Shown here in pieces: positions 12,675 to 59,395 of a stretch of 64,000 nt of DNA (position 1 is its first letter; each line of letters opens with the position of its first letter). The notes under the pieces were generated by a model. The model saw nothing but the letters and a program-made list of their open reading frames with translations. It did not search any database and was not told the DNA's origin. The position numbers and the translations under genes are program-made. Origin of the DNA: a virus; the IMG/VR virus record IMGVR_UViG_3300023174_005626, positions 45,483 through 109,482 of that record; one strand, 5' to 3'.

Positions 12675-13551
12675 AAATTCTATTAAATTCTTCTAATATT
12701 TTAAAAAAGCTTTTATTTTTTTGGAACAACTCATCTGATGTTCCTTGAGGTGCATTATCTCTACACCACCATATATCAAAATGTTTTCTATAAAATAAAT
12801 CTTGGTGGTTAAAATACATCAAAGTCATAATTTGTTCCTCATGAGGTAACCCATTATCATTACCCAAAACACTTTGGGCATAATTTTCAAAAGTTGTTAC
12901 TACGTTATCCCATTTATCTCTATGACCTCCAAACATTCCACCTATGATATGAATACTTCTATCATAGTTAACATACCATTTCGGGTCTACAGTTCCTGAC
13001 CAATAATTTCTATCATTTTCTTTACCAAATAACAAAAATTTATCTCCAGTGTCTTCAATAACATTTTTTAAGAAATTATTATTAAAAAGATTACTTTCGT
13101 AAAACCTTTTCATTGAATGGTGTTGTTCGTCAAGATATTTTAAAGGAATAAGTCCACAATGGGATAATCCCGCATCAACCCAATAATAGTTGTCATAAGA
13201 TTTATCTTCATTCCACCACCAACTAAATTTAGAATATTGAATTTCAATACATCTATCTCCTCTTTTAATGTCCTCAACATTCTTTCTTGAATTGATTAAA
13301 TCTTTAAATTTACAATTCTCAAGGTCAAAAACTTGGAATTTTAATTGATTCTCAGATATATTATTTTGGGAATAAAAAAATTCTTTTAAGGATTCAATTT
13401 CTCTGTCTGATGTATAACAAAGAAAATCCGCATCAGTCATTTTAAGTAATGAAAGAAGACTATATCTATAATGTGAACCTCTGTTAGGTCTTCCACCTAA
13501 TTCGGTTCCATTTAAATCACTATAAATTGCGGTAATTATTTTAGTTGACAT
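12667..13551 (-). CDS. HtrL/YibB-like glycosyltransferase
   Basis: A 294-residue single-domain relative of the N-terminal half of the next gene. It starts MSTKIITAIYSDLNGTELGG, carries YYWVDAGLSHCGLIP at the expected catalytic strand and GGMFGGHRDKW in the same relative place as GGFFGG in the neighbour. These paired motifs mark the HtrL/YibB family, linked to lipopolysaccharide and cell-surface glycans. An R-x-x-RGSHYRYS segment near the N-terminus could hold the nucleotide sugar. It overlaps both neighbours by a few bases, which indicates one operon and coupled translation. Donor and acceptor are unknown. Confidence 0.65.
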   Translation of the reverse strand: MSTKIITAIYSDLNGTELGGRPNRGSHYRYSLLSLLKMTDADFLCYTSDREIESLKEFFYSQNNISENQLKFQVFDLENCKFKDLINSRKNVEDIKRGDRCIEIQYSKFSWWWNEDKSYDNYYWVDAGLSHCGLIPLKYLDEQHHSMKRFYESNLFNNNFLKNVIEDTGDKFLLFGKENDRNYWSGTVDPKWYVNYDRSIHIIGGMFGGHRDKWDNVVTTFENYAQSVLGNDNGLPHEEQIMTLMYFNHQDLFYRKHFDIWWCRDNAPQGTSDELFQKNKSFFKILEEFNRIYE

Positions 13552-14284
13552 TATATGGTAAGTGTTGTTTTTGAATTTTTATTTTTTTGTTTTCACTTTC
13601 ATTTAAATATTGTCCAGGAATTTTAATTGGAGAATACTGATTCCAATTATATGTTTGAGTATAGAAATTATTGTACATACCATGAGACACGTCAGAATAA
13701 GAATTTTTTTGTGGAGCAATTGGTAATACAGGTGCAAAACATTGTACAACAGGGTAAACATGTTTAACCAATTGTTCATCAATAGGAAGAACATAATCTC
13801 CACTTTGGAAAGCATATTCTTTAATATTTTCTACAAGTTGGAATGATGACACATCATAGATAAGAATATTTGTTGCAAATGTTTCAGTTAATCTATCATG
13901 TGGTTTTGGTGGTAAATTAGTTAAGTCTAACAACATGTTATACTTTTCACTAATATTCATTGGTCTGTTTAAAGTTGGTGCCAAATTCATAACACCAAAC
14001 TCAATACCATCAATTTGTTTTTCCAAATCTTCAATAAATGATTTTGAATATGGCATCACATCACAATCATCTTCTATAACCATTACACGTTTATACCCTC
14101 TTTCTTTAGCAATATTTATAATTCCTAAATGAGAAAGGGTACAACCCATATAACTATTCCTATTAACAGCACTGAATACCTCGTAATCCCAACCAATATA
14201 ATCCAATTCAAATTTAATATCCTCTAATCTATCTGGTCTTGTTTCTAAGTTGACTACAAACTTTGGTAATTCATTAAATTTCAT
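13541..14284 (-). CDS. Glycosyltransferase family 25 (LPS biosynthesis type)
   Basis: A 247-residue protein with the family 25 layout. The N-terminus reads FVVNLETRPDRLEDIKFEL (the family N-L-x-x-R-x-DR motif), followed by IGWDYEVFSAVNR, then MGCTLSHLGIINIAKERGYK, which matches the conserved GC-x-x-SH segment. The acidic catalytic motif is VMVIEDDCDVMP. Family 25 enzymes include galactosyltransferases of lipooligosaccharide and collagen-type hydroxylysine. The start codon lies in the stop of the upstream GlcNAc-transferase-like gene and the end overlaps the next gene by 11 bases. The signature is clear; the sugar is not known. Confidence 0.85.
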   Translation of the reverse strand: MKFNELPKFVVNLETRPDRLEDIKFELDYIGWDYEVFSAVNRNSYMGCTLSHLGIINIAKERGYKRVMVIEDDCDVMPYSKSFIEDLEKQIDGIEFGVMNLAPTLNRPMNISEKYNMLLDLTNLPPKPHDRLTETFATNILIYDVSSFQLVENIKEYAFQSGDYVLPIDEQLVKHVYPVVQCFAPVLPIAPQKNSYSDVSHGMYNNFYTQTYNWNQYSPIKIPGQYLNESENKKIKIQKQHLPYNVN

Positions 14285-15552
14285 TAACTAACAACATTAT
14301 GATTTAGTTGACCTGTTAATCTATCACACCAACCTTTTGATTCTGAGTGTGGCCAAACAACCCAGTATGATGGTAATTCTGTTGTTTGGAACTCTCTCCA
14401 AACTTTACAATAACCATCAGGGTCTCTCATGAAACCAGCAATTTCGTTTTTATCTGCATCCTTTCTAAATAAAGTCTCATCTTTTGCATTATGGAATGCC
14501 ACAACCCAAAAGTCATAATCTTTTTCGGGAACACTTGAATAACCAACATCAATACAATGTTTGTATATTGTTGCAAAACTATCCATCCATTCTTCTTCTG
14601 TTTCAAAGTTATATGGACTTGGTGGATATTGTTTGTCTAAACAATGTTTGTCAATTGCTCTTCTTTCAAACAATAAGCCAGAATATTTTTCATAATCTCT
14701 TAAAGTTCTAACAGTGCCAAATCCAAATGGTCCATCATGACCTTCTTGAACTTCACCATCCATACCAAATAATTTTCTATTAGTTAAATGAGAAACTCTA
14801 TTTTTTTCTCCCCAAGTCTTATCATCATCCCATTGTTTTGTTCTACCCTTACGAGTGTACTCATGGTAAACTACAGGAACATGTGGGTGGAATAAATCAT
14901 AACCCCATGTATAAGCTCTTGCCGCAATTGAAATCTCTTCTCCGTGGAAATAGTATTCAGGGTTGTGTTGAACTTCTACTGAAAACTCACCTAATGTAAA
15001 ACAGAAGTGAGCAGAATAAAATCTTGCTGTTACAGGTTTTGTCATTTCTCTCCAACCTGGAATTGTTTCAGGTAAGAAGAATACAGCACCTTCAGGAATA
15101 AATCTATCAAATGCCATTCTCCAAGCATCTTGTGCTCTACCTGCAGGGTCATTGTCAGGGTCAAAAGATGGGACATAACCCGTAAGTAGAGGTTTCTTGT
15201 ACCCATCCTTTTGTAACCCCTTTATCATTTTGATAAGAACATCATCCCAATCTTTAATGAATCTCATGTGAGAATCAATTTGAAGGGTATATGTTTCACC
15301 ATCATAAAGTTGTTGTGTTAGGTTTCTGGCCCAACAAACTCCTTTGGCGTCTTGATATGGGATATCTAAGATTTTAAATCTTTTATCGGTTCTGAATTCA
15401 TCTAAGTTATCAAAACCATCTGTTTCGCTAAATTGTCTTGCGATTGCAAAAACCAAATTTTTAGGTTTCTTAGCGTTGGCAATCATATCTTTTAACGTTG
15501 GGATTAATTGTGGGTCCCTGTAGGATGCGATTTGAATAAAAATTTTGCTCAT
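14284..15552 (-). CDS. GlcNAc-transferase family glycosyltransferase (Skp1-GnT-like)
   Basis: A 422-residue protein. It opens MSKIFIQIASYRDPQLIPTL, the typical start of the family that includes the Dictyostelium Skp1 GlcNAc transferase and many bacterial and viral homologues. The catalytic region has KGVCWARNLTQQLY followed by TLQIDSHMRFIKDWD, in which D-S-H replaces D-x-D as in this family, and later YYFHGEEISIAARAYTWGYD. It should transfer GlcNAc or a related sugar in the cytoplasm to a hydroxyl of a protein or glycan. The eukaryotic member modifies a hydroxyproline, of interest because Pro-rich proteins are encoded directly upstream. First gene of the minus-strand glycosyltransferase operon, behind a terminator hairpin. 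Confidence 0.85.
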   Translation of the reverse strand: MSKIFIQIASYRDPQLIPTLKDMIANAKKPKNLVFAIARQFSETDGFDNLDEFRTDKRFKILDIPYQDAKGVCWARNLTQQLYDGETYTLQIDSHMRFIKDWDDVLIKMIKGLQKDGYKKPLLTGYVPSFDPDNDPAGRAQDAWRMAFDRFIPEGAVFFLPETIPGWREMTKPVTARFYSAHFCFTLGEFSVEVQHNPEYYFHGEEISIAARAYTWGYDLFHPHVPVVYHEYTRKGRTKQWDDDKTWGEKNRVSHLTNRKLFGMDGEVQEGHDGPFGFGTVRTLRDYEKYSGLLFERRAIDKHCLDKQYPPSPYNFETEEEWMDSFATIYKHCIDVGYSSVPEKDYDFWVVAFHNAKDETLFRKDADKNEIAGFMRDPDGYCKVWREFQTTELPSYWVVWPHSESKGWCDRLTGQLNHNVVS

Positions 15553-23493: not shown

Positions 23494-24705
23494 ATGTCTA
23501 AAATCAATGTACTAGTCGTACCCTCCGATAGAACTGGAGTTGGTAAATTTAGGTCTATAGACCCTCACATTTTTCTTCAAAACTTATATCCTGAAGATTT
23601 CCATATAGACATCATATATGATGTCGCATATGACGATTTGGAATTCTTTAAAAAGTATCAAATAGTTTCTTTTCATAGAAGTATTGGTCCTGATTTTGAA
23701 AGAGCTAATCAGTTAATTCTCAAATTAAATGAACTTGGTATTGCCACTGTTGGTGATATTGATGATTATTGGATGCCAGGTAAAGAACATCCAATTCACG
23801 ATGTTATCAGATTTAATAAAATCAATGAAAAAATTGTTGCAAACTTAAAAATTGCAAAATATGTTTCAACTACAACATCATTATTTGCTGATGAAATAAT
23901 GAAAATGAATAAAAATGTTGTGGTGTTTCCTAACGCAGTTAACCCAAAAGAATCTCAATTTAAAGAACCAACACCTGAATCAGATAGATTAAGGATTGGA
24001 TGGTTAGGTGGTTCGTCTCACTTACATGATTTGCAATTATTAGACCAATCATTTAGTAAGTTAGGTTCAATTAGTGATAAATTACAATATGTCCTTTGTG
24101 GATTTGATACAAGAGGAACTGTTACTGAAATTAATTCTCAAACAGGAGAACATGTTAAAAGAAATATCACACCTGAAGAAACTGTATGGGCATCATACGA
24201 AAAAATATTTACTCAAAACTATTCAACTATTTCTGAAGACTATAAAAAGTTTTTAGAAAAATACGTACAAGAATCTTACCCTAACGAAAATGATGAGGCA
24301 TATGTTAGAGTTTGGACTAGACCTGTACAATCATATGCTAAGAATTATTCAAAATTTGATGTATCTTTGGCACCAATCAAAAACCACATGTTCAATAGAA
24401 TGAAATCTCAATTAAAAGTTATTGAAGCTGGTTTCTATAAAAAAGCAATTATTGCATCAAATGTTGGTCCATATACTTTAGACTTAAAACATTGTTTAGA
24501 CCATGGTAATTTTGTTGATGGGAACGCATTATTAGTTGATGAAAATAGAAATCACTCTGATTGGGCTAAATTCATTGATAAATTGGTAAAAAACCCAAAC
24601 ATGGTAAAAGATATGGGCGAAAGATTATATGAGACTGTAAAAGACACATATGATTTAAATGTTGTAACAAAAGCAAGAGCAGAATTTTATAAATCAATCG
24701 TATGA
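23494..24705 (+). CDS. GT-B fold glycosyltransferase (family 4-like)
   Basis: A 403-residue protein opening MSKINVLVVPSDRTGVGKFR, where the Gly-rich turn resembles the start of GT-B enzymes. A linker VVVFPNAVNP precedes the C-terminal Rossmann half with LRIGWLGGSSHLHDLQLL, and the donor-site region has FNRMKSQLKVIEAGFYKKAI, matching the K-x-x-EA motif of family 4 where glutamate contacts the sugar nucleotide, followed by a C-terminal helix. The first gene of a long plus-strand operon in which starts and stops overlap. Probably a surface-glycan enzyme working in the cytoplasm; sugar unknown. Confidence 0.8.
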   Translation: MSKINVLVVPSDRTGVGKFRSIDPHIFLQNLYPEDFHIDIIYDVAYDDLEFFKKYQIVSFHRSIGPDFERANQLILKLNELGIATVGDIDDYWMPGKEHPIHDVIRFNKINEKIVANLKIAKYVSTTTSLFADEIMKMNKNVVVFPNAVNPKESQFKEPTPESDRLRIGWLGGSSHLHDLQLLDQSFSKLGSISDKLQYVLCGFDTRGTVTEINSQTGEHVKRNITPEETVWASYEKIFTQNYSTISEDYKKFLEKYVQESYPNENDEAYVRVWTRPVQSYAKNYSKFDVSLAPIKNHMFNRMKSQLKVIEAGFYKKAIIASNVGPYTLDLKHCLDHGNFVDGNALLVDENRNHSDWAKFIDKLVKNPNMVKDMGERLYETVKDTYDLNVVTKARAEFYKSIV

Positions 24706-25406
24706 TAAATAATATACCATTAAACAAATTTTTATTCTTAGATATTGAAACAGTTGGATGCGAATCTAATTGGGAAAACTTTAAGAAAAATAAAAAAGAA
24801 CTTTCATTTCAATTTGAACACATTCAAGATAATCTTAGAAAAAGATTTCCTGAGGAATCTGATACACCTATTGAACAATTGTTTGTAAATAGGGCTGCTT
24901 TAGTTCCTGAATTTTTAAAGATAGTTTGTGTTAGTGTTGCATTTGTTATGGATGATGGAACAGTTAAACTACAATCTTTTCATAGTGAAGATGAAGGTAA
25001 ACTACTTCAAGATGTGCAAAAATTATTAAATCGTACAGGTGATTTAGGATTCTACTTGTGTGGCCATAATGTTAAGGGATTTGATATTCCAACACTGGCT
25101 AAACGTATGATGATGTACGGATTAGAACCACCAAAATTATTACCAAGTTATGATACAAAACCTTGGGAAGTTAAAGCGATTGACACTAAAGACATATGGC
25201 AATATGGTGGATATGGTCAATTTGCATCTCTTGAACTAATGTGTGTTTGTATGGGTGTTGAGTCATCTAAAAATACAGAAGTAACAGGGAATAGAGTTCA
25301 TGAGGCGTATTGGATAGATAAAAACATTGAGGGTATTGTAAAATATTGTGAGAAAGATGTTGAAGTTTTGATAGATATAATTAAAAAATTAAAACAATTA
25401 AAATGA
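24702..25406 (+). CDS. PolB-type 3'-5' exonuclease (DnaQ fold)
   Basis: A 234-residue protein of the predicted PolB-like exonuclease family. The three motifs are in place: Exo I FLFLDIETVG (D and E ligands), Exo II LCGHNVKGFDIPTLAKRM (N-x-x-x-FD), and Exo III IVKYCEKDVEVLIDI (Y-x-x-x-D). It overlaps the preceding glycosyltransferase gene by four bases (ATGA) and the dUTPase by four, so it is coupled to both. It should degrade DNA 3' to 5', perhaps as a stand-alone repair or proofreading nuclease; the phage polymerase already has its own exonuclease. Confidence 0.85.
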   Translation: MINNIPLNKFLFLDIETVGCESNWENFKKNKKELSFQFEHIQDNLRKRFPEESDTPIEQLFVNRAALVPEFLKIVCVSVAFVMDDGTVKLQSFHSEDEGKLLQDVQKLLNRTGDLGFYLCGHNVKGFDIPTLAKRMMMYGLEPPKLLPSYDTKPWEVKAIDTKDIWQYGGYGQFASLELMCVCMGVESSKNTEVTGNRVHEAYWIDKNIEGIVKYCEKDVEVLIDIIKKLKQLK

Positions 25407-26032
25407 TGCAAGAAACTAATAGAGAAGAAGAATCTGATTTATGGAAACAGGTTCAAGAACAATTTGAAAAATTAAAATTACAAACAGGTATTGAATCTGA
25501 CGAGGCTTACCAAAAAGAACTTGATGAAATACTTGGATTAACCGATGAAGATTTTAAAGAAATGGATGAAAGTACAACGTTACTATTATCAAGAAAAAAT
25601 GTTCAAGTTCAATTGTTGGACAATCTCGCAGTTTATCCAAAATATGCTTACCCAACAGATTCTGGTTTTGATTTACATTCTACAATAGAATACACTTTAC
25701 CATCTCTTGGTAGAGCCATAATTCCAACAGGAATTAAAGTATCTTTTGATGAAGGTTTGGAATTACAAATTAGACCCAAGAGTGGTTTAGCAATCAATCA
25801 AGGAATTACCGTTTTAAACACACCTGGTACTGTAGATGCAGGATATACAGGAGAACTCAAAGTAATTGTTTTTAACACAAACAAGAATGATTTTACAATT
25901 ACAAAAGGTATGAAGATTGCTCAAGCGGTTTTTGCACCTGTAATAAACGGTAGACACATTAACTTTCAAACGGTTAGTGAAGTAGAAAAAAAAGATAGAG
26001 GTAATAATGGTTTTGGTAGTACAGGTATTTAA
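25403..26032 (+). CDS. dut: dUTPase with N-terminal extension
   Basis: A 209-residue protein. The C-terminal 145 residues form a trimeric-type dUTPase with motif 1 TDSGFDLHS, motif 2 RPKSGLA, motif 3 GTVDAGYTGEL (catalytic Asp and Tyr), motif 4 KGMKIAQAVFAP and motif 5 DRGNNGFGSTG. It converts dUTP to dUMP, keeps uracil out of phage DNA and feeds thymidylate synthesis. The extra 60 or so N-terminal residues are acidic and helical (WKQVQEQFEKLKLQTGIESD) and are not part of the standard enzyme. It follows the exonuclease by a four-base overlap. All motifs look intact. Confidence 0.95.
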   Translation: MMQETNREEESDLWKQVQEQFEKLKLQTGIESDEAYQKELDEILGLTDEDFKEMDESTTLLLSRKNVQVQLLDNLAVYPKYAYPTDSGFDLHSTIEYTLPSLGRAIIPTGIKVSFDEGLELQIRPKSGLAINQGITVLNTPGTVDAGYTGELKVIVFNTNKNDFTITKGMKIAQAVFAPVINGRHINFQTVSEVEKKDRGNNGFGSTGI

Positions 26033-26046
26033 GTTAAGCTTATTTT

Positions 26047-26217
26047 ATGGGAAAGTATTACGAAAATTTATCAACCTTAATAGAACTTATAAATAAATTA
26101 GATAAAAAAAATATTTTAGCAGAATTTATTTTGGACTGTATTGTCATGGCAAAAGACGCTCCTGACAAATCACCACATGAAATAATAAAAGAGGCGAAGA
26201 AAAAAAGACTCAAATAA
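26047..26217 (+). CDS. Small helical protein between dUTPase and glycosyltransferase
   Basis: A 56-residue frame starting MGKYYENLSTLIELINKLDK and ending in a Lys/Arg-rich helix (EIIKEAKKKRLK). It fills the gap between dUTPase and the next glycosyltransferase, and the ATG of the latter overlaps its stop codon by one base. This tight fit and the codon use similar to neighbours support a real gene. No family recognised. Confidence 0.6.
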   Translation: MGKYYENLSTLIELINKLDKKNILAEFILDCIVMAKDAPDKSPHEIIKEAKKKRLK

Positions 26218-27845
26218 TGTTAACAGTAGCATATTCAACAAGAGAACACAAACCAGAATTTATTGAATACCTGAAAAAAAGTTCAGGATTTAAAAAAATT
26301 GAAGTTATTGAAAAAGTTAATAATGGTGAAAAATCTTTATCTCAAGTATATAATGAAATTTTGTCTGAATCAAAAACTGACATAATTGTTTTTTGTCATG
26401 ACGACATTTATTTTGATACGACAGGTTGGTATCATAAATTAATGAAACATTTTGATAAATCAGATTATGGTATTATCGGAATGGCAGGTACAACTGATAT
26501 GCCATCAAGTGGTAAATGGTGGGAAGATAGAAAAAAAATGATTGGAATTGTTAACCACGAAAATGGTGGAAAAAAATGGGAATCAAAATATTCCGAATCA
26601 TTAAACAACAATATTGGTCAAACAATAATTGTTGATGGTTTATTTATTGCAATTGATAGAAGAAAAATTAAAAAAAGTTTTAACGAAGAATTTGAAGGGT
26701 TTCATTTTTATGACATCCCTTTTTGTTTTGAAAACCATTTAGAAGGTGTCAAAATTGGCGTAATAACAAATATTAGAATCACTCATAAATCTATTGGTCA
26801 AACCAACGAACAATGGGAAAAAAATAGACAGTTATTTGAAAAAAAATATAAGAACAACCTTCCATTAAAACTTCCTTTTGACCCAAAAAAAAGGCTTAAG
26901 GTTTTAATCTCTTGTTTATTTTTTAGAACATTCACAGGCTCTGAATTATATGTTTATGAATTAGCCAAAGGTTTACAAAAAGAAAATTGTGATGTTACGG
27001 TTATGTCACAAATAGGTGGACCATTGACCGACATGGCAAAAAAAGCGGGTATTAAATGCATAACATTTGAACAAGCACCAGGTTTTAAACTTGGAGATGG
27101 TGTGTGGACTTTTGACGCTGGAAATGGTGTACAAACTTCAACACCAAATATGATGTATAGAATCTCGGATGTTAATTTTGATTTGATACATATGCAACAC
27201 AAACCAGTTGCTGAAAGAATGATTCAGTTTTATCCTGAAATTGACAAAATATATTCAATTCATTCTGAGGTTATAGAATTAGAAGACCCAATCACACATA
27301 AATCAATTAAAAAATATATTGCAATTAGACCTGAGATTAAAAACTATATGATTAATAATTTTGAAATCCCTGAAAAAGATATTGAAGTTATTTATAATCC
27401 TGTAGACAACGAAAAATTCAAATCAAAACCTTCAAAAGTTCAAAACGCTGTTTTATTTGTTGGTACGATAGATTATCTGAGAAGAGAAACAATTATGGAT
27501 TTAATTGAATATACAAAAGATAATGATAAAGAACTTTGGTTAATGGGAGAAGACAAACAAAATTATTTGTCAACAATTTTAACACAATCTCACGTCAAAC
27601 ATTTTAACCCAAATTGGAATGTTGAAAAACTAATTAATGAGTGTGATGAAACAGCAGGAATACAATTAGGAAGAACTACAATTGAAAGTTGGTTATGTGG
27701 GAAACCAAGTTGGATTTATAAAGTAAATTCATTTGGAAATATTGAGTCTAAAGAAAAATTTGACCCACCTACTGATTTAGAAAAATACCATGTAAATAAT
27801 GTTGTTAAACAAATCAAAGAACAATATTTAAAGATTCTCTCATGA
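26217..27845 (+). CDS. Two-domain glycosyltransferase: GT-A (StrF-like) plus GT-B
   Basis: A 542-residue fusion. Residues 1-220 resemble the StrF-type glycosyltransferase domain: MLTVAYSTREHKPEFIEYLK, SLSQVYNEIL, then the acidic IIVFCHDDIYF motif and GMAGTTDMPS, followed by DGLFIAIDRRKI and EGFHFYDIPFCF. Residues 225-542 form a GT-B enzyme with VLISCLFFRTFTGSELYVYE and the later NAVLFVGTIDYLRR and IQLGRTTIESWLCGKPSWIY segments, the place where family 4 enzymes hold the donor. The two catalytic domains in a single chain suggest a bifunctional sugar transfer. ATG and stop overlap with neighbours on both sides. Confidence 0.8.
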   Translation: MLTVAYSTREHKPEFIEYLKKSSGFKKIEVIEKVNNGEKSLSQVYNEILSESKTDIIVFCHDDIYFDTTGWYHKLMKHFDKSDYGIIGMAGTTDMPSSGKWWEDRKKMIGIVNHENGGKKWESKYSESLNNNIGQTIIVDGLFIAIDRRKIKKSFNEEFEGFHFYDIPFCFENHLEGVKIGVITNIRITHKSIGQTNEQWEKNRQLFEKKYKNNLPLKLPFDPKKRLKVLISCLFFRTFTGSELYVYELAKGLQKENCDVTVMSQIGGPLTDMAKKAGIKCITFEQAPGFKLGDGVWTFDAGNGVQTSTPNMMYRISDVNFDLIHMQHKPVAERMIQFYPEIDKIYSIHSEVIELEDPITHKSIKKYIAIRPEIKNYMINNFEIPEKDIEVIYNPVDNEKFKSKPSKVQNAVLFVGTIDYLRRETIMDLIEYTKDNDKELWLMGEDKQNYLSTILTQSHVKHFNPNWNVEKLINECDETAGIQLGRTTIESWLCGKPSWIYKVNSFGNIESKEKFDPPTDLEKYHVNNVVKQIKEQYLKILS

Positions 27846-45930: not shown

Positions 45931-46606
45931 TATTTTCTCTAATCACCCTTCTTATAATTGTGGACAATTCTTCATTTTTTGGTTCATAATGAGTCATCTT
46001 AGGTTTATTGCCTGTACCTGATTTTGAATGTGTTTTTTCTGCTTTTCTTTTTTGTTGACATGCAGATTTTTTTTGTGATGCAGACATTTTAGATGCGACT
46101 CCCGCGGCTCTACATTTTGGATAACCCTTATCACTTGCCTCAGGTCTTCCACAAGGTGGATGTTTACCATCAACTTTTCTACATATATTAACCCAAGGTC
46201 CCTTAGGTTGTTTACTACCCTTTGGTTTCTTTTTTGTACCAAACCAAACTGCCAAATCTTCTTTAAGTGGCCCTACTGCTTTTTGTATTAATTTTTCAGG
46301 TAATTCTAAATCTCCAATATTGCTCCCTTCATCATCATTTTGACCAGTGTAAAATTGTTTTAAATATCTATCAATTTCTGCAACCCTATCTGTTCTTGCC
46401 TCAATTTTTTTTCTTTCTTCAGGTGACTCTTTAAAATCACCATCCGCTTCTTCATACGCCAATTCAGCATTCTTATAATGATAAACAGGTTCAGTATAAG
46501 GACCAAGTTCTTTATTTTTCCAAAGTTGCGGTGCTAATACAATAGGAACTTTAAATTTTCCTGAACTTGATGCACCAGTTGCTTCATTTATTGGTCTTTT
46601 TTTCAT
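45908..46606 (-). CDS. DUF5872-like Cys-motif protein
   Basis: A 232-residue basic protein. The N-terminal half is charged; the central part has AVWFGTKKKPKGSKQPKGPW, then the Cys-containing NICRKVDGKHPPCGRPEASD and GYPKCRAAGVASKMSASQKK, where four conserved Cys may bind zinc. The pattern is like a domain (DUF5872) seen in phages. The C-terminus ELSTIIRRVIREN is an amphipathic helix with an I-x-E that a T4-like prohead protease could cut. Likely DNA-binding or packed inside the capsid. A TATTTAT motif precedes it. Confidence 0.55.
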   Translation of the reverse strand: MKKRPINEATGASSSGKFKVPIVLAPQLWKNKELGPYTEPVYHYKNAELAYEEADGDFKESPEERKKIEARTDRVAEIDRYLKQFYTGQNDDEGSNIGDLELPEKLIQKAVGPLKEDLAVWFGTKKKPKGSKQPKGPWVNICRKVDGKHPPCGRPEASDKGYPKCRAAGVASKMSASQKKSACQQKRKAEKTHSKSGTGNKPKMTHYEPKNEELSTIIRRVIRENTNQVSSK

Positions 46607-46614
46607 ATATTACA

Positions 46615-46621
46615 ATAAATA
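46615..46621 (-). promoter_or_regulatory. TATTTAT late-promoter candidate for DUF5872-like gene
   Basis: Sense-oriented TATTTAT eight bases before the minus-strand ATG. The divergent plus-strand gene at 46636 has no copy in its own sense. Confidence 0.5.
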
Positions 46622-46635
46622 TCATTAAAATTATT

Positions 46636-46863
46636 ATGGAGAACGAAAAAATACCAACAAAACTTTTATTTGGAAGCATTGCTGTTTATAAAACAGAAGA
46701 TGTTGATTTAATCATTGACACAATGAATTTTGAACAATCTTTTTTTTATGTTATGCAAGCAATTCAATATGGACATAATTCAAACCTTTTCACACTACAA
46801 GAAAGTGAATTAATATCAAAAGCATTAAGAATATTAAATAAAGGATTAAATTCTGAAGAATAA
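46636..46863 (+). CDS. Small unknown protein
   Basis: A 75-residue protein starting MENEKIPTKLLFGSIAVYKT; the upstream part of the frame crosses the divergent gene and is less likely. Mostly helical, with FYVMQAIQYGHNSNLFTLQE and a Lys-rich end. It is followed immediately by a two-way terminator. No family recognised. One of several small plus-strand genes inserted between minus-strand structural genes. Confidence 0.5.
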   Translation: MENEKIPTKLLFGSIAVYKTEDVDLIIDTMNFEQSFFYVMQAIQYGHNSNLFTLQESELISKALRILNKGLNSEE

Positions 46864-47890: not shown

Positions 47891-48241
47891 ATGAAAAAAA
47901 TATTATTTCTTTTTTTGATAATTATATCGTCAGTTTCTTTTGGACAAAAGAAAACCGAAGGCAGTCCCTTAGTTAACTATGTTTCAAAAAAAATAAATCA
48001 AGACGTAACTTTTGTCGTTTGGGAAGAAAAAAAAGACTCATTTAGAGTCCATGAAATAACTTATTATGATTTCAAAAAAGAAGATTATATTACTTTGAAT
48101 GAATCAAACATTAAAATAAAATATCCAGAACTGTTAGATTGGTTTACAATTAAAGTAAATTTTCCATTGCGTCGTACCAACAGGACAAACGTTAATAACC
48201 TTAAGATTATCAATACCGTCAACCTTAGGAATTGGCCCTAA
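47891..48241 (+). CDS. Secreted small protein with Bacteroidota signal peptide
   Basis: A 116-residue protein. MKKILFLFLIIISSVSFGQK is a clear signal peptide (Lys pair, hydrophobic core, SFG-Q end) of the type common in Flavobacteriia. The mature part has VNYVSKKINQDVTFVVWEEK and YYDFKKEDYITLNESNIKIK. It is not recognised. The last 36 residues are read from DNA that also encodes, on the other strand, the end of the OmpA-like protein, so the natural C-terminus may have been lost. It lies behind a host-type promoter and could be an early exported protein that changes the host surface or blocks superinfection. Confidence 0.6.
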   Translation: MKKILFLFLIIISSVSFGQKKTEGSPLVNYVSKKINQDVTFVVWEEKKDSFRVHEITYYDFKKEDYITLNESNIKIKYPELLDWFTIKVNFPLRRTNRTNVNNLKIINTVNLRNWP

Positions 48242-49435: not shown

Positions 49436-51247
49436 TTATCTTAACTCTTTTAAGTCAAATGTTCTAACTCCATCAACTGTGATTCTACCATAGAATCTGT
49501 TGTTCACCATTTTCTTAGCGTATCTAGTCATGATACCTTTGATTGGTGTGAAGTTAAATGGATTGTACATAGTTGGAGTAAGTTGTAAAGGTACATATGG
49601 TGCGTAAATGTAACCAGTGTCTAATAAAGACGTACCTTTATGTCCAATCAACACTTGGTTTGGTGGGAAGTAAGGGTCTCTATAAACTTGGTATCTACCA
49701 GCTAAAGTACCTACTCTCTCAATACCCATGTTGTATTGGTCTTGCTCTGGAGCCGCATTTGATACGTGGAAATATTCCAAATCATCAAAAATTGCACTGA
49801 TTTCAGAAGAAACCACAATCCAGTTAGCACCACCTCTTAAGGTAGACTTGTGAATTTGTGCAGATAATTGGTTGATTGCAGTAATCAATGTTTGGTTCCA
49901 GTCTTTTTGTGTGTAAGGTTGAGCGTTACCGCCTAATCTCTTCCAACCGTTGTAATCCCATCTTAAGTTCCAAGCCGCACCTTTTCTAAGGTCTCTCAAG
50001 ATTTCTCTATCAATTTCAGCTGCAACTTGCTCAGATAATAAAGCTGTTAATTCAGCTTCAGCATCAATGTTGTGGAATGCTGCAACGTCTTGTGCCATTT
50101 CTGGAGACCATTGAGCTCTTAATTTTCTTTCAGTTACAGAAACTGTTACTGACATAAGGTCAAACGAAACCTCACCGATTCTATCTTCAAATTCTAAGTT
50201 CTTATAGATTCTATAAGTCGCTGAGAATGCGTTATTATTTGCAGTTGAAGAAGAGAATGTTGAACCTGTATAACCGTCCATAGAACCACCACAAGTGATA
50301 CATACTGGAACTTGTAAATCAACTTCTAAATAAATTTGACCGTTTACATCACAAATGTTATCATATTGACCACCATCTGTTAATGAGTTAGGGAAAACTG
50401 CAGTTTGGTTGTTGTTACCATATTGAACAATACCTTTACCATATCTTTGAGTTACAACTCTGAATAAGTAAGGACCACCACCTGCGGTTGTTGTGTTTGT
50501 AGAAACACCATTGATTGTTAAATCAGCTAAGAAAGCTTCAGTATCAATTGGGTTACCGTCTGGACCGATTAATTTTCCTGCTGCAACTTGAGCAAAACCT
50601 GACATAATAACTAATACTTTTCTGTAATCAGTCAAAGCGTATGCTGCTGGTTCAAGGTTTAAAGTTGTATTGTTCCATTGTGCTGTAACAACTGTAGTTA
50701 CCGCAGATGTAATAGAACTAAACTGTCCTTTAGAATAATCATATAAACCTGGAGGGTCTAATGCAGGTTCGTTACCTTCGTAGAATCTATCATAAAGGTC
50801 TCTTCCTGTATTATAATCATATCCAGCGTTTGGTGATGCAGGACCACTTGGTGCTCCGTAAGGAGGATAATGTATTCCTTGGTTGTCATCTTGACCACCA
50901 CCTACTTCGTAAGATTGAATGTTAGGTACAAAGTAGAATAATTTACCGATTGGTAAGTTCATCGCTTGTACTGAAACGATATCGTTTGCTAATAATTTAG
51001 AGAAAACTCTTCTAACGATAGGGAAAACAACTGTTTCAAATGCACCTGTATCAGATGTAGATGATGCTTCATTGATTAAAAATGATGCTTGGTTTTCGTA
51101 AAGTTGAGCTACGTTTTCTCTCATGTGACCTTTAAGACCTTCTAAAAAGCCTAATTTGTCCCATTTGTTGATTGTGTCTTCTTTGATAACTTTAAGGTGC
51201 TTAAGACCGATGTTACCAACAAGACCTGATTCTAATAATGCTCCCAT
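49436..51247 (-). CDS. gp23: Major capsid protein, gp23-like
   Basis: A 603-residue HK97-fold capsid protein. The most conserved gp23 part is clear: TGAFETVVFPIVRRVFSKLL and ANDIVSVQAMNLPIGKLFYF. The N-terminal 60 residues form the assembly delta region, ending LINE, and the bond E60-A61 (INE/ASS) fits the gp21 cleavage rule (I/L-x-E). A Gly/Tyr-rich variable region (about 125-330) with many short strands probably lies on the capsid surface. The C-terminus has IKGIMTRYAKKMVNNRFYGR. It is longer than T4 gp23 (521 residues), mostly through the variable insertion. It lies directly downstream of the scaffold gene and ends at a terminator. Confidence 0.96.
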   Translation of the reverse strand: MGALLESGLVGNIGLKHLKVIKEDTINKWDKLGFLEGLKGHMRENVAQLYENQASFLINEASSTSDTGAFETVVFPIVRRVFSKLLANDIVSVQAMNLPIGKLFYFVPNIQSYEVGGGQDDNQGIHYPPYGAPSGPASPNAGYDYNTGRDLYDRFYEGNEPALDPPGLYDYSKGQFSSITSAVTTVVTAQWNNTTLNLEPAAYALTDYRKVLVIMSGFAQVAAGKLIGPDGNPIDTEAFLADLTINGVSTNTTTAGGGPYLFRVVTQRYGKGIVQYGNNNQTAVFPNSLTDGGQYDNICDVNGQIYLEVDLQVPVCITCGGSMDGYTGSTFSSSTANNNAFSATYRIYKNLEFEDRIGEVSFDLMSVTVSVTERKLRAQWSPEMAQDVAAFHNIDAEAELTALLSEQVAAEIDREILRDLRKGAAWNLRWDYNGWKRLGGNAQPYTQKDWNQTLITAINQLSAQIHKSTLRGGANWIVVSSEISAIFDDLEYFHVSNAAPEQDQYNMGIERVGTLAGRYQVYRDPYFPPNQVLIGHKGTSLLDTGYIYAPYVPLQLTPTMYNPFNFTPIKGIMTRYAKKMVNNRFYGRITVDGVRTFDLKELR

Positions 51248-53538: not shown

Positions 53539-54261
53539 TTATTTTCCCAAAAAATCGTTCAATTTTTTCATTAAGTCAAGAGACTTATCCATTGAACCTG
53601 TTTGAGATTGTTGTTTGTGTTTTATTTCTTCTTCTAAATTTTCTTCGTATTTGTTTCTATCATCAGGATTAGAGAATAAATAAGCTCCTGGTGTTGATGG
53701 TGATGATACTAAGTCAAAACAAATTAACTCAAAATCATCTTGAACTTCATTTCTTTCCCCTACTTTTTTTAAAGAACCAACTCCTCTTGAAGAAACTCCC
53801 ATAGTTACTCCTTGTCTCATTAAGTTCGCTGCTTGGTCTCCTTTAGTTGACACAATACCTCTTTCATGAAATCCTGGTGATGTTAACAATTTAAGTTTAC
53901 CCATCAAAATATTTTTATCCCACCATATATCAGTAATGATGTGTGATACTCTATCTAAATCAATTAAAGATGATTCAGGGTGATTCAATTCTGAAGTAGA
54001 TAAACCTTTAGCTATTGCTTTTTTATAATTTTCGGCTTCTCTTTTTAAAATCCTTTCAGGATAAAATCTACCGTTTCTATTTGGAGTATCGTATTTTTGA
54101 AGAACCGCATAAAATTCAAATGGATTTCTGTAATCCATATTAGCCGCTTCTTTTAAAATGTCCGCATTAAGTCTGTCTTTTGGAGATACATGACCTGCAT
54201 CCATTTCAATTAATATACCATGACCAATTTCGCTAGCCTCTAAAATTCTTAAATTTTTCAT
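53539..54261 (-). CDS. gp21: Prohead protease, gp21-like
   Basis: A 240-residue serine protease of the T4 type. The catalytic His is H94 in TSELNHPESS and the Ser is S157 or S158 in MGVSSRGVGSL; NGRFYPERILKREAENYKKA and ITDIWWDKNILMGKLKLLTS are further conserved parts. It degrades the core scaffold and trims capsid precursors after I/L-x-E sites, such as that at residue 60 of the major capsid protein. The C-terminal 40 residues are charged and probably removed on activation. It lies between the portal/core genes and the scaffold gene as in T4. Confidence 0.92.
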   Translation of the reverse strand: MKNLRILEASEIGHGILIEMDAGHVSPKDRLNADILKEAANMDYRNPFEFYAVLQKYDTPNRNGRFYPERILKREAENYKKAIAKGLSTSELNHPESSLIDLDRVSHIITDIWWDKNILMGKLKLLTSPGFHERGIVSTKGDQAANLMRQGVTMGVSSRGVGSLKKVGERNEVQDDFELICFDLVSSPSTPGAYLFSNPDDRNKYEENLEEEIKHKQQSQTGSMDKSLDLMKKLNDFLGK

Positions 54262-54297: not shown

Positions 54298-54738
54298 TTA
54301 TTCTTTATTGTCTTTTTTAGAATTTGAAAACTCAAAATGTTTGTTCTCCACAATGTTGTTTTTAAAAATGTTTCTTACGATTTGTTTTACAGAATCTTTA
54401 ATTTCATTTGATTTAAAATCTAATTCAGATATTGTAAAAAGATTTACTTCTAAGTTAAAAAAGGATTTTTTTCCGTGGGATATTCCACTTGTCCTTAAAT
54501 CTAAATCAACAATACTTTTTTCTTGAAAAATTTTTTGATTGATTGAATTAAATACGGAATGTTTAATTTCTCTGTTTAAGTTCCCAACAATACGAATCCA
54601 GTTTTCGGTATCATACTTTGGTGTAATCCATGATTGGATGTTAATATATACAGATTTTAGGTTTTTGGAATCAACTGTTCCATAGATTGATTTAATAGGA
54701 TTGTATAAATTCAACTTTACACTTTTGCCTTTTTTCAT
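54298..54738 (-). CDS. Unknown protein in head module
   Basis: A 146-residue basic protein starting MKKGKSVKLNLYNPIKSIYG with beta strands (SVYINIQSWITPKYDTENWI and SFFNLEVNLFTISELDFKSN) and a charged C-terminus. No family recognised. It lies on the minus strand between protease and the bS21 gene, which is on the other strand. A virion assembly role is inferred from position only. Confidence 0.5.
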   Translation of the reverse strand: MKKGKSVKLNLYNPIKSIYGTVDSKNLKSVYINIQSWITPKYDTENWIRIVGNLNREIKHSVFNSINQKIFQEKSIVDLDLRTSGISHGKKSFFNLEVNLFTISELDFKSNEIKDSVKQIVRNIFKNNIVENKHFEFSNSKKDNKE

Positions 54739-54835
54739 TAATTTTCATTGTTATTATGTTTATTTTCATTAAAAAAATAACACATATAACTGTCAATGTC
54801 AAAAATTTTTTAAGTTTTGAAGATATTTGTAAGAT

Positions 54836-55021
54836 ATGCTAATAATAGAAATTAAAAACGGAGAGAATATTGAAAAAGCTCTCAAAACACTTAAGTCAAA
54901 AGTAATTAAGACTAAACAGAATCAAAAACTTTTAGGCAGAAAAGAATTCACTAAGCCTTCTGTTGTAAACAGAAAGAAGATTTTAAAGGCAATTTATATT
55001 CAGAAAAAAAGAATATCTTAA
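54836..55021 (+). CDS. rpsU: Ribosomal protein bS21
   Basis: A 61-residue protein with the full bS21 pattern: LIIEIKNGENIEKALKTLKS, KVIKTKQNQKLLGRKEFTKP and SVVNRKKILKAIYIQKKRIS. The strand E-I-K-N-GENIEKAL, the R-x-x-FTKPS turn and the Lys-rich helix are those of cellular S21. In Bacteroidota, bS21 with bS6 and bS18 hides the anti-Shine-Dalgarno end of 16S rRNA. A phage copy may replace the host protein and shift translation toward phage mRNA. It lies antisense between minus-strand head genes, with TATTTGTAA upstream, no clear Shine-Dalgarno and a four-base overlap with the convergent core-like gene. Confidence 0.93.
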   Translation: MLIIEIKNGENIEKALKTLKSKVIKTKQNQKLLGRKEFTKPSVVNRKKILKAIYIQKKRIS

Positions 55022-55716
55022 ATTGACCCTTCTAAATTTTTAAGTTTTAAGAAATTAACTTGGTCAAACTTTTCAGTCTTAAGTCTGTCAATTGTTTCAG
55101 AAATTTTTGTTTTTAACTCAAATTCTTCTTCTTTATCTAAAATAGATTGTAATTTAGTAATAGTACTTTCTTTTAAATTTTCAAACTTTGTCTCAAGAGA
55201 TTTAGAATCTTCAGAAATTAATTGAAAAAATTCTTTTTTAGTATTTTCATCTAAAGTCTCAATATAAGTTCTTAAAGTTTGATTTGCAATATTAACCATA
55301 GATTTGATTGGTATATTGATTGATTCCTTAATTGTTTTTGAATTAGATGTTAATATAGAAATTATATTTTTCTTTGATTGAATTCTCTCATGAAGATTTA
55401 ATTTGTTAGTATAAACTAACGTATCAATATCAGAATATTTGTTTTCGGCTGATTCTTCTAAAGTTTTTGGAAGTTTAATTGATGGTAAAATTTTACCTAA
55501 AAGACTTACACCTTCCTCTAAAAAATCTTTTGCATCAGATTCTGATAATCCCTGAGGTGTACTTAATTGGTCATACACGGAATAAGCCTTTGAAATAGAC
55601 TTATCATTCAAAACATTGTGTTTGAATTCTCTCAAAGATTTCTTGAATTCTTTTTCGTTCTGATACGACTCAAGAAGATTTTTTTCAATTATGGATTTTA
55701 TTTTACCGAAGGTCAT
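55018..55716 (-). CDS. Unknown helical protein downstream of portal (core-like)
   Basis: A 232-residue helical protein starting MTFGKIKSIIEKNLLESYQN, with coiled-coil stretches (SKSLETKFENLKESTITKLQ and EEEFELKTKISETIDRLKTE). The position between portal and prohead protease is that of small core proteins (gp67/gp68) in T4, although no sequence match can be claimed. The N-terminal helix could be a core-targeting segment. It overlaps the bS21 gene end by four bases in convergent orientation. Confidence 0.5.
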   Translation of the reverse strand: MTFGKIKSIIEKNLLESYQNEKEFKKSLREFKHNVLNDKSISKAYSVYDQLSTPQGLSESDAKDFLEEGVSLLGKILPSIKLPKTLEESAENKYSDIDTLVYTNKLNLHERIQSKKNIISILTSNSKTIKESINIPIKSMVNIANQTLRTYIETLDENTKKEFFQLISEDSKSLETKFENLKESTITKLQSILDKEEEFELKTKISETIDRLKTEKFDQVNFLKLKNLEGSI

Positions 55717-55737: not shown

Positions 55738-57597
55738 TTAGGAATTTAGTAACTTATCCAATTCTTTTGAAATTTCTCCTAAAGATTCTTGTCCATGACC
55801 TAAATCTATGAATGTTGAACCGTCAATTAAGTTACTTTCAATCAACATGTTTAAGCTATTTAATTTTGACTCAGGTATTGGTGGTTCTCCTTCAGTTGGT
55901 GGTGGAGGAGCTTCTCCTCCTAATTCTTCACCTCCTGGAGGTGGTGGCGGTGGTGGTGCCCCTGAGTCTCCACCTGGAGGAGGTCCTAATTCTTCTGTTC
56001 CACCTGGAGTTGTTGATGCTCCCGCTGATGGCGTAGAACCCGAAGGACTTCCGTAAAGTTTGTCAATATTATCAAAAATACCTGTTTTAGTAATAACAGT
56101 TGGAGTTGCTTTAAGTTCTTCTCCAACGGCTCTTTCAATTCTTTGTTGTTGTAAGTCAAGTCTAATTTCTTCGTCTGACCAACCAAAAATGTGTTTCTTA
56201 GCCCAAGTAGATGATGTTGCCTGAATACCATTTCCAGGGTCAGCAACCAAGTCTTTATATAATAATATTTTTTCTTTCCAAATATCTACTTTAAGTAAAT
56301 CTGCTTGTGTAGATGGGTTAGTTAATCCTAATGTGAAGTTTTGTAATTCGTCTTCAAATCCTAATAAGAATAAATGTACAATTGCAATCTTATTAAGTTC
56401 TTGAATCATGCTTTTTTGAATTCTATTAATCGTACGGGCAAATCTGATATCTTGTAACGCCAAATTTTTTCCGTCACCAACAACTTCTTCAAATCCTAAA
56501 AATGCTTTAGGTACACGAAGAGCTGTTAATAATTTCTTTTGAATATATTCAATATCTGCAATTTCTGATAGGTTTGTTGCCCCTGGTAATGTATCAATTG
56601 GGCTTGGTGCCGCTGGGTCTCTAACAGGAACAAAATAATCTTGGTCAACTGCCATTTGATTAAATCTCATATCTACGTTACCTGTCTTACTATCAACAAT
56701 TTGTTCTCTTTTAAATTTGTTTGCAACACGTTGTACATATGCCTCAACATCATCATCATTCATATTTCCAACAAATACCTTAAAGATTCTTCTTTCAGGT
56801 GCTCTTGAAGTTCTATAGATTAACATCGCATCTTCACACAATAAAAGTTGTTTCCAAGTTCTTCTTGCTTTTTCTAACATAGAAGTACCATAAGGAAGTT
56901 TTCTATCATCACCTAATAATCTAAAATGAGCAATTTCCCATGATTGAAATTCCATGTTTTTGTTCTTCCAAGTAAAATGTAATGCTTTTTTATCTTTGTC
57001 TAATTCTTTTGTAATATCTACCGAAATCTTTTGACTAACTCCAACTTCATGTCTTTCAATTTCAATTGTTGGTAATTGTTGAACACCAACAACTCCTTTC
57101 TCAGGGTCTAATTTCAAATACACAAAGTTATCACCATACTTACAAGTGTTTCTTGTCCACATAGGTAAGTTAGTGTTAATGTCTAATGCATTGTTAAATA
57201 AATCGGCTAATACACCCTTAATTCTTTTTGATTCAGAATAAATTTGTAATATAAATCCATCTTCATTTGTTGTTGTAGATTCTTCAGCATAAATGTCCAA
57301 AGCGGCAGAAATCTCAGGAGTATATTCCATTGATTCATAATCATACTGAGAAGATAATCTTGTTGGCTCATAATAAATTGCTTGAGAATATAAGTTATTC
57401 TCAACTTTAGCCCATTGATTTGCTAAATAAAAAGTTTGTTGTGCTTGAAGTTTTTCGGTTTCGTATTCTTGTTTGTCTGTTGTACGCAACAATTCCTTTT
57501 TATCAAACTTAAATGTTGGATAATCTTGTCCTAAAAGTGAATTAGGTCCAAATGTTTGCGACAATCGTTGCCAAACTGTCATGTTCTGTTCTGCCAT
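55738..57597 (-). CDS. gp20: Portal protein, gp20-like
   Basis: A 619-residue portal. Typical gp20 parts are YDYESMEYTPEISAALDIYA near residue 85-105, ELDKDKKALHFTWKNKNMEF, LLGDDRKLPYGTSMLEKARR, LLLCEDAMLIYRTSRAPERR and LPGATNLSEIADIEYIQKKL, the last leading to the wing helices. It forms the twelve-subunit ring that starts head assembly and through which DNA is packed. The C-terminus has an unusual low-complexity tail (about residues 525-580) of Pro, Gly and Glu with SGAPPPPPPPGGEE, absent from T4 gp20. It follows the terminase gene after 37 bases. Confidence 0.95.
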   Translation of the reverse strand: MAEQNMTVWQRLSQTFGPNSLLGQDYPTFKFDKKELLRTTDKQEYETEKLQAQQTFYLANQWAKVENNLYSQAIYYEPTRLSSQYDYESMEYTPEISAALDIYAEESTTTNEDGFILQIYSESKRIKGVLADLFNNALDINTNLPMWTRNTCKYGDNFVYLKLDPEKGVVGVQQLPTIEIERHEVGVSQKISVDITKELDKDKKALHFTWKNKNMEFQSWEIAHFRLLGDDRKLPYGTSMLEKARRTWKQLLLCEDAMLIYRTSRAPERRIFKVFVGNMNDDDVEAYVQRVANKFKREQIVDSKTGNVDMRFNQMAVDQDYFVPVRDPAAPSPIDTLPGATNLSEIADIEYIQKKLLTALRVPKAFLGFEEVVGDGKNLALQDIRFARTINRIQKSMIQELNKIAIVHLFLLGFEDELQNFTLGLTNPSTQADLLKVDIWKEKILLYKDLVADPGNGIQATSSTWAKKHIFGWSDEEIRLDLQQQRIERAVGEELKATPTVITKTGIFDNIDKLYGSPSGSTPSAGASTTPGGTEELGPPPGGDSGAPPPPPPPGGEELGGEAPPPPTEGEPPIPESKLNSLNMLIESNLIDGSTFIDLGHGQESLGEISKELDKLLNS

Positions 57598-57634: not shown

Positions 57635-59395
57635 TTATTTGGCACCAAATAACCATCCATATTTTTGATAATCGGCTTTAGTGGCTGCTTGGTTGTTATA
57701 TGGGTTTTGTCTTCCCATTTGAGGAATCATTGGATTAAAGTAATCTGAAGTATTTTTATTCTCATTAACAACTGATGTCCAAGAATTTAACATCGCCTTT
57801 GTATGATTAACCACTTTTTGTAAAGATTGGAATGATTTTTCTGCAACATATATTGCCATAGAAATACCCATAATACAGTCATCGTGATGACCTTTTTGGT
57901 GGTCAGGTCTACCATTTACGTAAATAAATGTGTTCATTTCGTTATATAATCTGTGTGAATATATTTTAAAATCGTGTCTACATGCCTCTTCCAGTGCGGC
58001 AATAATTTGAACTCTTTTATTGTTAAAATTAATACCAGGTATTTTTTCATTCATTTTTGGGTCCCACTTCCACTTATTATTTGGGTCAACATTATCAACG
58101 TACATTCCTCCTTGATACCCCATTTCTTGCATTTTTCTTGCTGTTGCAACTCCCATTCCGCCCGTTAAATCCACAACACAATATGCCGTATACATACTTC
58201 CCCACTTATAAGCAATTTCTGCAGTAATATCTGGAGGAACCTTTCCAACATATTCAAGTACTTGTTCTCTTGTGTCAAAATCAATTATTTGAATGCTACT
58301 AAAATCTTCAGAGTCACCTCTTGATACGTCCACACCCATAACATATTTATGATTATTTTCTGGTTCTTTAAAAATCCAAAGTGAACCACCCATCATTTTA
58401 GCCAAAGGCTCCCTCAATTGATTTTTAGAAATATTTTGCATTAACTCAGAATCAAAAACGTTATCACCTGAACCCAAGAAATTACATTCCAATTCCTGAG
58501 CCACTTTTCTCCTATCAAATTTCAACTTTTTAACCATACTTTCAAACCAAGCTGAACATGGTTTGTATCCTTGATTTATATAATCAGTTGTTATTGCGTG
58601 GTCTCGTTCATACGGATTGTCAATGGATAAATCCACAACAACATCTTTGGCATAATCTTCTCTATTCAACAGAAAGTGAACTAAATCATTTGTTTTAACC
58701 ATATACAAATCTTTAGTATATCTTGGGTCACGATACCAATACATTTCAGAAATTTTGAAGTCATTCATATTTCTTAATGCTTGGTCATAAATTTCATAAT
58801 AAATTGCATCGTACCCATTTGGTGTAGATACAACAATAACCTTACCACCCGTAGATAGTGAGGCCATACACGCTGACCAGAAATCTCCGTCAGCCTCAAT
58901 GAACGCAGCCTCATCAAAAATAAGAATAGTCGGGGTATAACCTCTCAACGCATCCTTTGATGTTGCAACCGCCTTAACTTCACAGTCATTAGTAAGTTTA
59001 AAATGTCTTTGTGCGTTTTTGTCAGGTGAAAATCCAACACCTACCCAAGCTGGCCATTGTTCTGTAAAATTTCTAATTTTGTTAGCCATCTCAACTGATG
59101 TATCTAACTTGTTGGCAATAATTAGAATTTTTTCTGGCTTTTGTTTTTTAGCGAATACAAGTTTTTTTGATGCCCATGCAGCTGTAACGGTTGATACACC
59201 AGCCTGACGATACTTTAAGGCAATGTTTTCATTGTGGGAATCGTAGTCTTCAATAAGTCTTACTTGGTCAGGAAAAAGGTCCAATGGAACATACTTTGAT
59301 ACTGTGTTATCGTATGTCTGTAAATAAGTACGAAGTGCGTAAGGAGTATTCCTCATACACTTCGTAACTTCTATAATTAATTGTTCTTTAGTCAC
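57635..59395 (-). CDS. gp17: Terminase large subunit, gp17-like
   Basis: A 586-residue packaging motor. The ATPase has a Walker A-type loop ALKYRQAGVSTVTAAW (residues 61-69), Walker B TILIFDEAAFIE (D161, E162) and the coupling VVSTPNGYDA. The nuclease domain has VMGVDVSRGDSEDFSS (D356), CVVDLTGGMGV (D409) and HHDDCIMGIS (D505/D506), the three acidic positions of a RNase H-like nuclease. It cuts the DNA concatemer and pumps it into the prohead through the portal encoded next. It lies after a 434-residue gene with a gap of six bases. Confidence 0.96.
   Translation of the reverse strand: MTKEQLIIEVTKCMRNTPYALRTYLQTYDNTVSKYVPLDLFPDQVRLIEDYDSHNENIALKYRQAGVSTVTAAWASKKLVFAKKQKPEKILIIANKLDTSVEMANKIRNFTEQWPAWVGVGFSPDKNAQRHFKLTNDCEVKAVATSKDALRGYTPTILIFDEAAFIEADGDFWSACMASLSTGGKVIVVSTPNGYDAIYYEIYDQALRNMNDFKISEMYWYRDPRYTKDLYMVKTNDLVHFLLNREDYAKDVVVDLSIDNPYERDHAITTDYINQGYKPCSAWFESMVKKLKFDRRKVAQELECNFLGSGDNVFDSELMQNISKNQLREPLAKMMGGSLWIFKEPENNHKYVMGVDVSRGDSEDFSSIQIIDFDTREQVLEYVGKVPPDITAEIAYKWGSMYTAYCVVDLTGGMGVATARKMQEMGYQGGMYVDNVDPNNKWKWDPKMNEKIPGINFNNKRVQIIAALEEACRHDFKIYSHRLYNEMNTFIYVNGRPDHQKGHHDDCIMGISMAIYVAEKSFQSLQKVVNHTKAMLNSWTSVVNENKNTSDYFNPMIPQMGRQNPYNNQAATKADYQKYGWLFGAK

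Follow-up and report, generated by a model that had tools for sequence, protein, structure and literature searches.

Why would a phage carry a ribosomal protein gene in its head module, on the strand opposite to the capsid genes, and what might the product do to the ribosomes of its host? The gene lies at 54836-55021 (+) of the window, i.e., the whole 64,000-nucleotide stretch of viral DNA analysed here, and runs from an ATG start to a TAA stop. Its 61-residue product (MLIIEIKNGENIEKALKTLKSKVIKTKQNQKLLGRKEFTKPSVVNRKKILKAIYIQKKRIS) is a member of the bS21 family, matching Ribosomal_S21 (PF01165) in Pfam over residues 4-54 (E=1.5e-10, 41 bits vs a cut-off of 27), and among solved structures its best matches are bS21 proteins of Bacteroidota, that of F. 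johnsoniae (7jil) being one. A preliminary description of this DNA, made from the letters alone, had reported a complete bS21 with GENIEKAL and FTKPS motifs, and both are present. The source record (109,482 bases) has one bS21.

Among the ribosomal proteins that phages carry, bS21 is by a wide margin the most frequent (PMC6375957, PMC9976891). Chen et al. 2022 (ISME Commun., PMC9723584) described bS21-encoding Bacteroidetes jumbo myophages (clades a-e, Bacteroidetes hosts, genomes of about 290-330 kb, tRNAs) in which the gene sits antisense in a module of terminase large subunit (TerL), portal, protease and major capsid protein (MCP) genes, between two hypothetical families. They found the nearest bacterial bS21 in Flavobacteriia, a conserved aromatic residue 54, divergence at Arg21, Phe23, Asp25 and Thr28, and, in lake samples, late transcription of phage bS21 together with MCP. 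The window shares with these phages the antisense place in the module, aromatic residue 54, a Flavobacteriia-type bS21 and an AT-rich genome; relatives were found on 317-321 kb contigs, and the window has no tRNA. Its bS21 is an ordinary example of this published system, to which it adds some new points open to testing.

An old antisense place in the head module

The module is T4-like and reads leftward. On the minus strand lie TerL (57635-59395; PHROG 2, E=6e-39), the portal protein (55738-57597; PHROG 213, E=3e-66), a conserved 232-aa hypothetical protein (55018-55716) that is convergent with bS21 and overlaps it by 4 nt at the stop codons, a conserved 146-aa hypothetical protein (54298-54738) that is divergent from bS21 and kept in relatives, the head maturation (prohead) protease (53539-54261; PHROG 207, E=1.2e-42) and an MCP of the T4 gp23 type (49436-51247; PHROG 138; Pfam Gp23, E=1.3e-70). 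bS21 is thus antisense between two hypothetical genes, themselves flanked by portal and protease. The preliminary description placed it on the opposite strand to all neighbours, which is right for TerL, portal, protease and MCP but too broad for the module edge, where there are further plus-strand ORFs of uncertain status (46570-46863 and 47891-48241).

From gene order only, we take the 146-aa and 232-aa genes to be putative positional counterparts of the T4 prohead core genes 67 and 68 (gp67/gp68). The fold model of the 146-aa protein is a confident alpha/beta one (pLDDT 89) with no solved or named relative, its sole match being an uncharacterised viral protein (A0A8S5L9A5). The 232-aa model, helical and of low confidence (pLDDT 66), was too weak to use and was set aside. 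A DNA pattern search of six phage records gave no match.

The arrangement is widely shared. An IMG/VR scan found at least 578 bS21 relatives, and we examined the layout in the best 80. The order divergent gene, bS21, convergent gene holds in all of these with a sufficiently long contig (one contig stops short of the convergent gene). Between bS21 and the 146-aa gene the spacer measures about 92-104 nt, with a single exception of 52 nt that reflects a different choice of start codon. With few exceptions, the stops of bS21 and the convergent gene overlap by 4-9 nt. Given this number of relatives and the layout kept in the best 80, the ORF is not a chance one. Where it was computable, dN/dS in pairs with the window bS21 lies at 0.05-0.42.

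A second set of loci was picked by portal, with bS21 playing no part in the retrieval. It contains 63 loci with bS21 and three without it but with both neighbours (L262, L264 and L267); L284 was considered as a further bS21-less locus and rejected, as it has an intact bS21. In every portal-selected locus with both bS21 and protease, bS21 is antisense, and distant phages whose portal is 69-71% identical show this layout too. We therefore reject a recent insertion, and the word "inserted" in the preliminary description is misleading because the antisense arrangement is ancestral to the clade. In two other distant phages (L182:3995 and L190:2054), a divergent bS21 lies between protease and MCP and is read from their strand; these copies form a separate lineage in the bS21 tree.

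In the bS21-less loci, about 125 nt separate the two neighbours (L262:6833-6959, L264:7098-7224, L267:7569-7694). This site holds an intrinsic-terminator-like hairpin with a T-run (z -3.3 to -5.1), followed by the candidate promoter of the next head gene, TTGACA-17-TATATT. No bS21 was found elsewhere on these contigs (9.6-47.7 kb). The portal tree, rooted with the distant phages and weak in its backbone, unites the bS21-less rows in a single clade (100/100), and one change fits the pattern. With bS21 present at this site in the outgroup, a single loss in one clade is the simplest reading, and bS21 would then be dispensable at least there, or replaced in the unsequenced remainder of those genomes. 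This clade of close relatives offers a natural matched comparison. Neither it nor the far phages with the same synteny were found in the main text of Chen et al. 2022.

There are two further ideas to weigh. Chen et al. 2022 suggested a functional tie between bS21 and an opposite-strand neighbour, which is weakened by the three phages that retain both neighbours with no bS21 at the site. The other idea is that bS21 poisons host translation or is packaged in the virion. Packaging was raised by Chen et al. 2022, and the gene does lie within the head module. Poisoning has a precedent in Mizuno et al. 2019 (PMC6375957), where the bS21 of Pelagibacter phage HTVC008M entered E. coli ribosomes and cut their in vitro translation to about 5%. 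That protein is likewise phage-borne and related to its host's, but it belongs to an alphaproteobacterial lineage with a non-Bacteroidota host, and the E. coli result is cross-species. With late expression (Chen et al. 2022), poisoning would also hit ribosomes just when they are needed for capsid synthesis, so we consider this idea very improbable.

A Bacteroidota-type protein with its own first helix

A bS21 tree of 116 sequences and 64 columns unites the near and far phage copies in a single clade (99/95), with a Flavobacteriaceae sequence next to it (93/83). The phylogenetic objection that the preliminary description raised against itself, a placement outside Bacteroidota, falls away because the phage copies group in this manner, in a tree whose bacterial rows are Bacteroidota only. 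The tree supports a flavobacterial-type origin of phage bS21 and gives no date for it.

To see where phage and host proteins differ, 75 phage sequences were compared with 53 Flavobacteriaceae main copies; L16, K25 and T26 are invariant by construction because the phage set was filtered on them. Phage and host have in common K17, K20, K22, K40, S42, R46, K51, A52 and an aromatic residue 54 (75/75 phage copies: Y 66, H 8, F 1), and the C-terminal half of phage bS21 matches that of hosts. Tyr54, which stacks on the anti-Shine-Dalgarno (anti-SD) sequence in F. johnsoniae (PMC9723584, PMC9976891), is retained in the window. With the F. johnsoniae protein (7jil; PMC9976891), the window bS21 thus shares fold family, Tyr54 and the conserved C-terminal half. 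By its aromatic residue 54 and this C-terminal half, it is of the predicted anti-SD-occluding Bacteroidota type.

Phage copies are consistently unlike hosts at E13, T18, S21, V23, I24, Q30 and L50, and five of these positions (18, 21, 23, 24 and 30) fall in the region of a first-helix block. Residues 19-28 (LKSKVIKTKQ) are intact in nearly all portal-selected phage copies, while the rest of the protein varies. Since bS21 played no part in selecting this set, the invariance of the block is not a product of retrieval bias. The preliminary description expected that the surface differing from the host could be named, and it can: residues 18-30.

One possible role is a specialised ribosome in which late phage mRNAs are preferred over those of the host, the model of Chen et al. 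2022 and of the preliminary description, here acting through the altered first helix. The block is nearly invariant and unlike hosts, and in Chen et al. 2022 this helix is positioned at the expected site of mRNA binding. Stability, or exchange with host bS21, would account for the block just as well, and we found no feature that sets phage mRNAs apart from host ones (window genes being equally devoid of a Shine-Dalgarno signal), so we think such a preference unlikely. Another role is repair or supply, with phage bS21 only topping up the pool when host synthesis stops, so that ribosomes remain able to initiate on SD-less mRNA, without preference or specific effect on feedback. The conserved C-terminal half fits this, as does the weak initiation on SD-less mRNA of F. 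johnsoniae ribosomes that lack bS21 or its C-terminal region (PMC9976891). Supply leaves the invariant phage-specific helix block unexplained, and we rate it as somewhat doubtful, if less so than the specialised ribosome.

Start signals of phage and host genes

Shine-Dalgarno (SD) pairing was computed between the 25 nt upstream of each start and a 16S tail (GGAUCACCUCCUUUCU) that was assumed and may not be the host's. By this measure, the window bS21 pairs at -1.7 kcal/mol. Phage bS21 genes have a median of -1.5 with 0/81 below -9 kcal/mol, a second phage set has 0/31 below that value, and the minimum among portal-selected phage copies is -8.8. Flavobacteriaceae main rpsU copies have a median of -17.9, with 49/53 below -13 kcal/mol. 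The contrast is strong when distinct proteins are counted and relatedness is ignored (44 phage vs 53 host, Fisher p ~2e-23). The extended SD (below -13 kcal/mol) of autoregulated host rpsU is therefore absent from the window bS21 and the phage copies, which differ from host rpsU in this as well as in the first-helix block.

The window genes as a whole behave in the same way: 0/69 pair below -9 kcal/mol, with a median equal to that of shuffles, which bears out the earlier claim that the phage mRNA is SD-less. The phage bS21 gene thus follows the phage default, without the host autoregulatory element. Because all window genes lack an SD, its absence at bS21 could be simply that default.

Nearly all Bacteroidota mRNAs are SD-less too, so the proposal in the preliminary description that the phage swaps the protein to favour its own SD-less mRNA is incomplete: it does not separate phage from host. 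Neither is the inference new, as Chen et al. 2022 made the same one from the same gene arrangement. The SD absence at the phage gene and the TATTTAT-type motif described below were not found in the main text of that paper.

Many Flavobacteriaceae genomes have a second, divergent bS21 paralog (L194, L198, L221, L313-L315, L320-L323, L325, L328, L330, L334-L336, L340, L341, L345 and L346). It has no extended SD (0/20 below -9 kcal/mol, vs the main copy above) and so may stand apart from the autoregulatory loop. We considered this second paralog as the source of the phage gene and rejected it: by score the phage copies are nearer to the main paralog, and they do not cluster with the second.

Upstream of the phage gene there is a candidate late promoter, TATTTGT (54824-54830, +), 5 nt before the bS21 ATG. 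It is a variant of TATTTAT, the most frequent 7-mer in the 45 nt preceding window genes (18/69; the reverse complement has 5, and letter permutations average 3.7). TATTTAT is commoner at the starts of putative transcription units (13/24) than inside them (5/45, p=3e-4), with units by our own definition and a motif chosen by eye ahead of testing. In relatives, ATATTT is conserved upstream of bS21, with TATTTGT, TATTTAT or TATTTTA depending on the clade. The 18 genes with TATTTAT include those starting at 49363, 54261, 55716 and 57597 (-), and the distance from motif to start codon is often 4-20 nt; many phage mRNAs may therefore be leaderless or have a very short leader. If TATTTGT acts like the T4 late TATAAATA, the bS21 mRNA may likewise be leaderless or nearly so.

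The divergent 146-aa gene has a candidate promoter of its own at 54774-54802 (-), consisting of TTGACA (54797-54802), 17 nt and TATTTT (54774-54779), and this overlaps the region upstream of bS21. GTCAAAA at this promoter is conserved in relatives.

A possible takeover of the bS21 pool

In F. johnsoniae, rpsU is autoregulated via its extended SD by ribosomes that lack bS21 (McNutt et al. 2023, PMC9976891; these authors also speculated on phage bS21). The strong autoregulatory SD of the host and its absence from the phage gene turn a vague ribosome hijack into a specific prediction, in a system where the F. johnsoniae rpsU circuit has been worked out.

We propose, with a probability of roughly 0.6, that bS21 made late replaces the host copy in the 30S subunit and keeps the anti-SD hidden, taking over by dosage while bypassing host feedback. 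A working Bacteroidota-type bS21 would be made late alongside the capsid proteins, a timing taken from Chen et al. 2022, and would take the place of bS21 in host 30S subunits. Its C-terminal half would still shut the pocket in which the anti-SD is hidden, leaving phage-loaded ribosomes in the SD-independent mode that phage and host mRNAs both use. Having no extended SD, the phage gene would be translated by bS21-replete ribosomes and so escape host feedback, and as the bS21 pool grew, host rpsU would be switched off. A preference for certain mRNAs or factors is possibly added by residues 18-30, the first-helix block.

A stronger form of this takeover is that the phage exploits the host autoregulatory circuit, such that feedback alone displaces the host bS21 pool, with no protease required. 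With the anti-SD kept closed and translation SD-less, phage-loaded ribosomes would repress host rpsU but spare the phage gene. We put this stronger form forward tentatively, holding it possible but short of even odds.

Several other genes in the window merit a brief description. In a 512-aa protein (4731-6269, +), the first 226 residues contain the N and C domains of an Fe/Mn superoxide dismutase, both complete, and a long tail follows. A 134-aa SET-domain protein (2529-2933, +; PF00856, E=4e-13) adjoins an SNF2-type helicase. Several glycosyltransferases (GlcNAc, family 25, family 2/4) and an HtrL_YibB protein are encoded at 10998-15552 (-) and 23494-27845 (+), perhaps for surface or DNA glycosylation.
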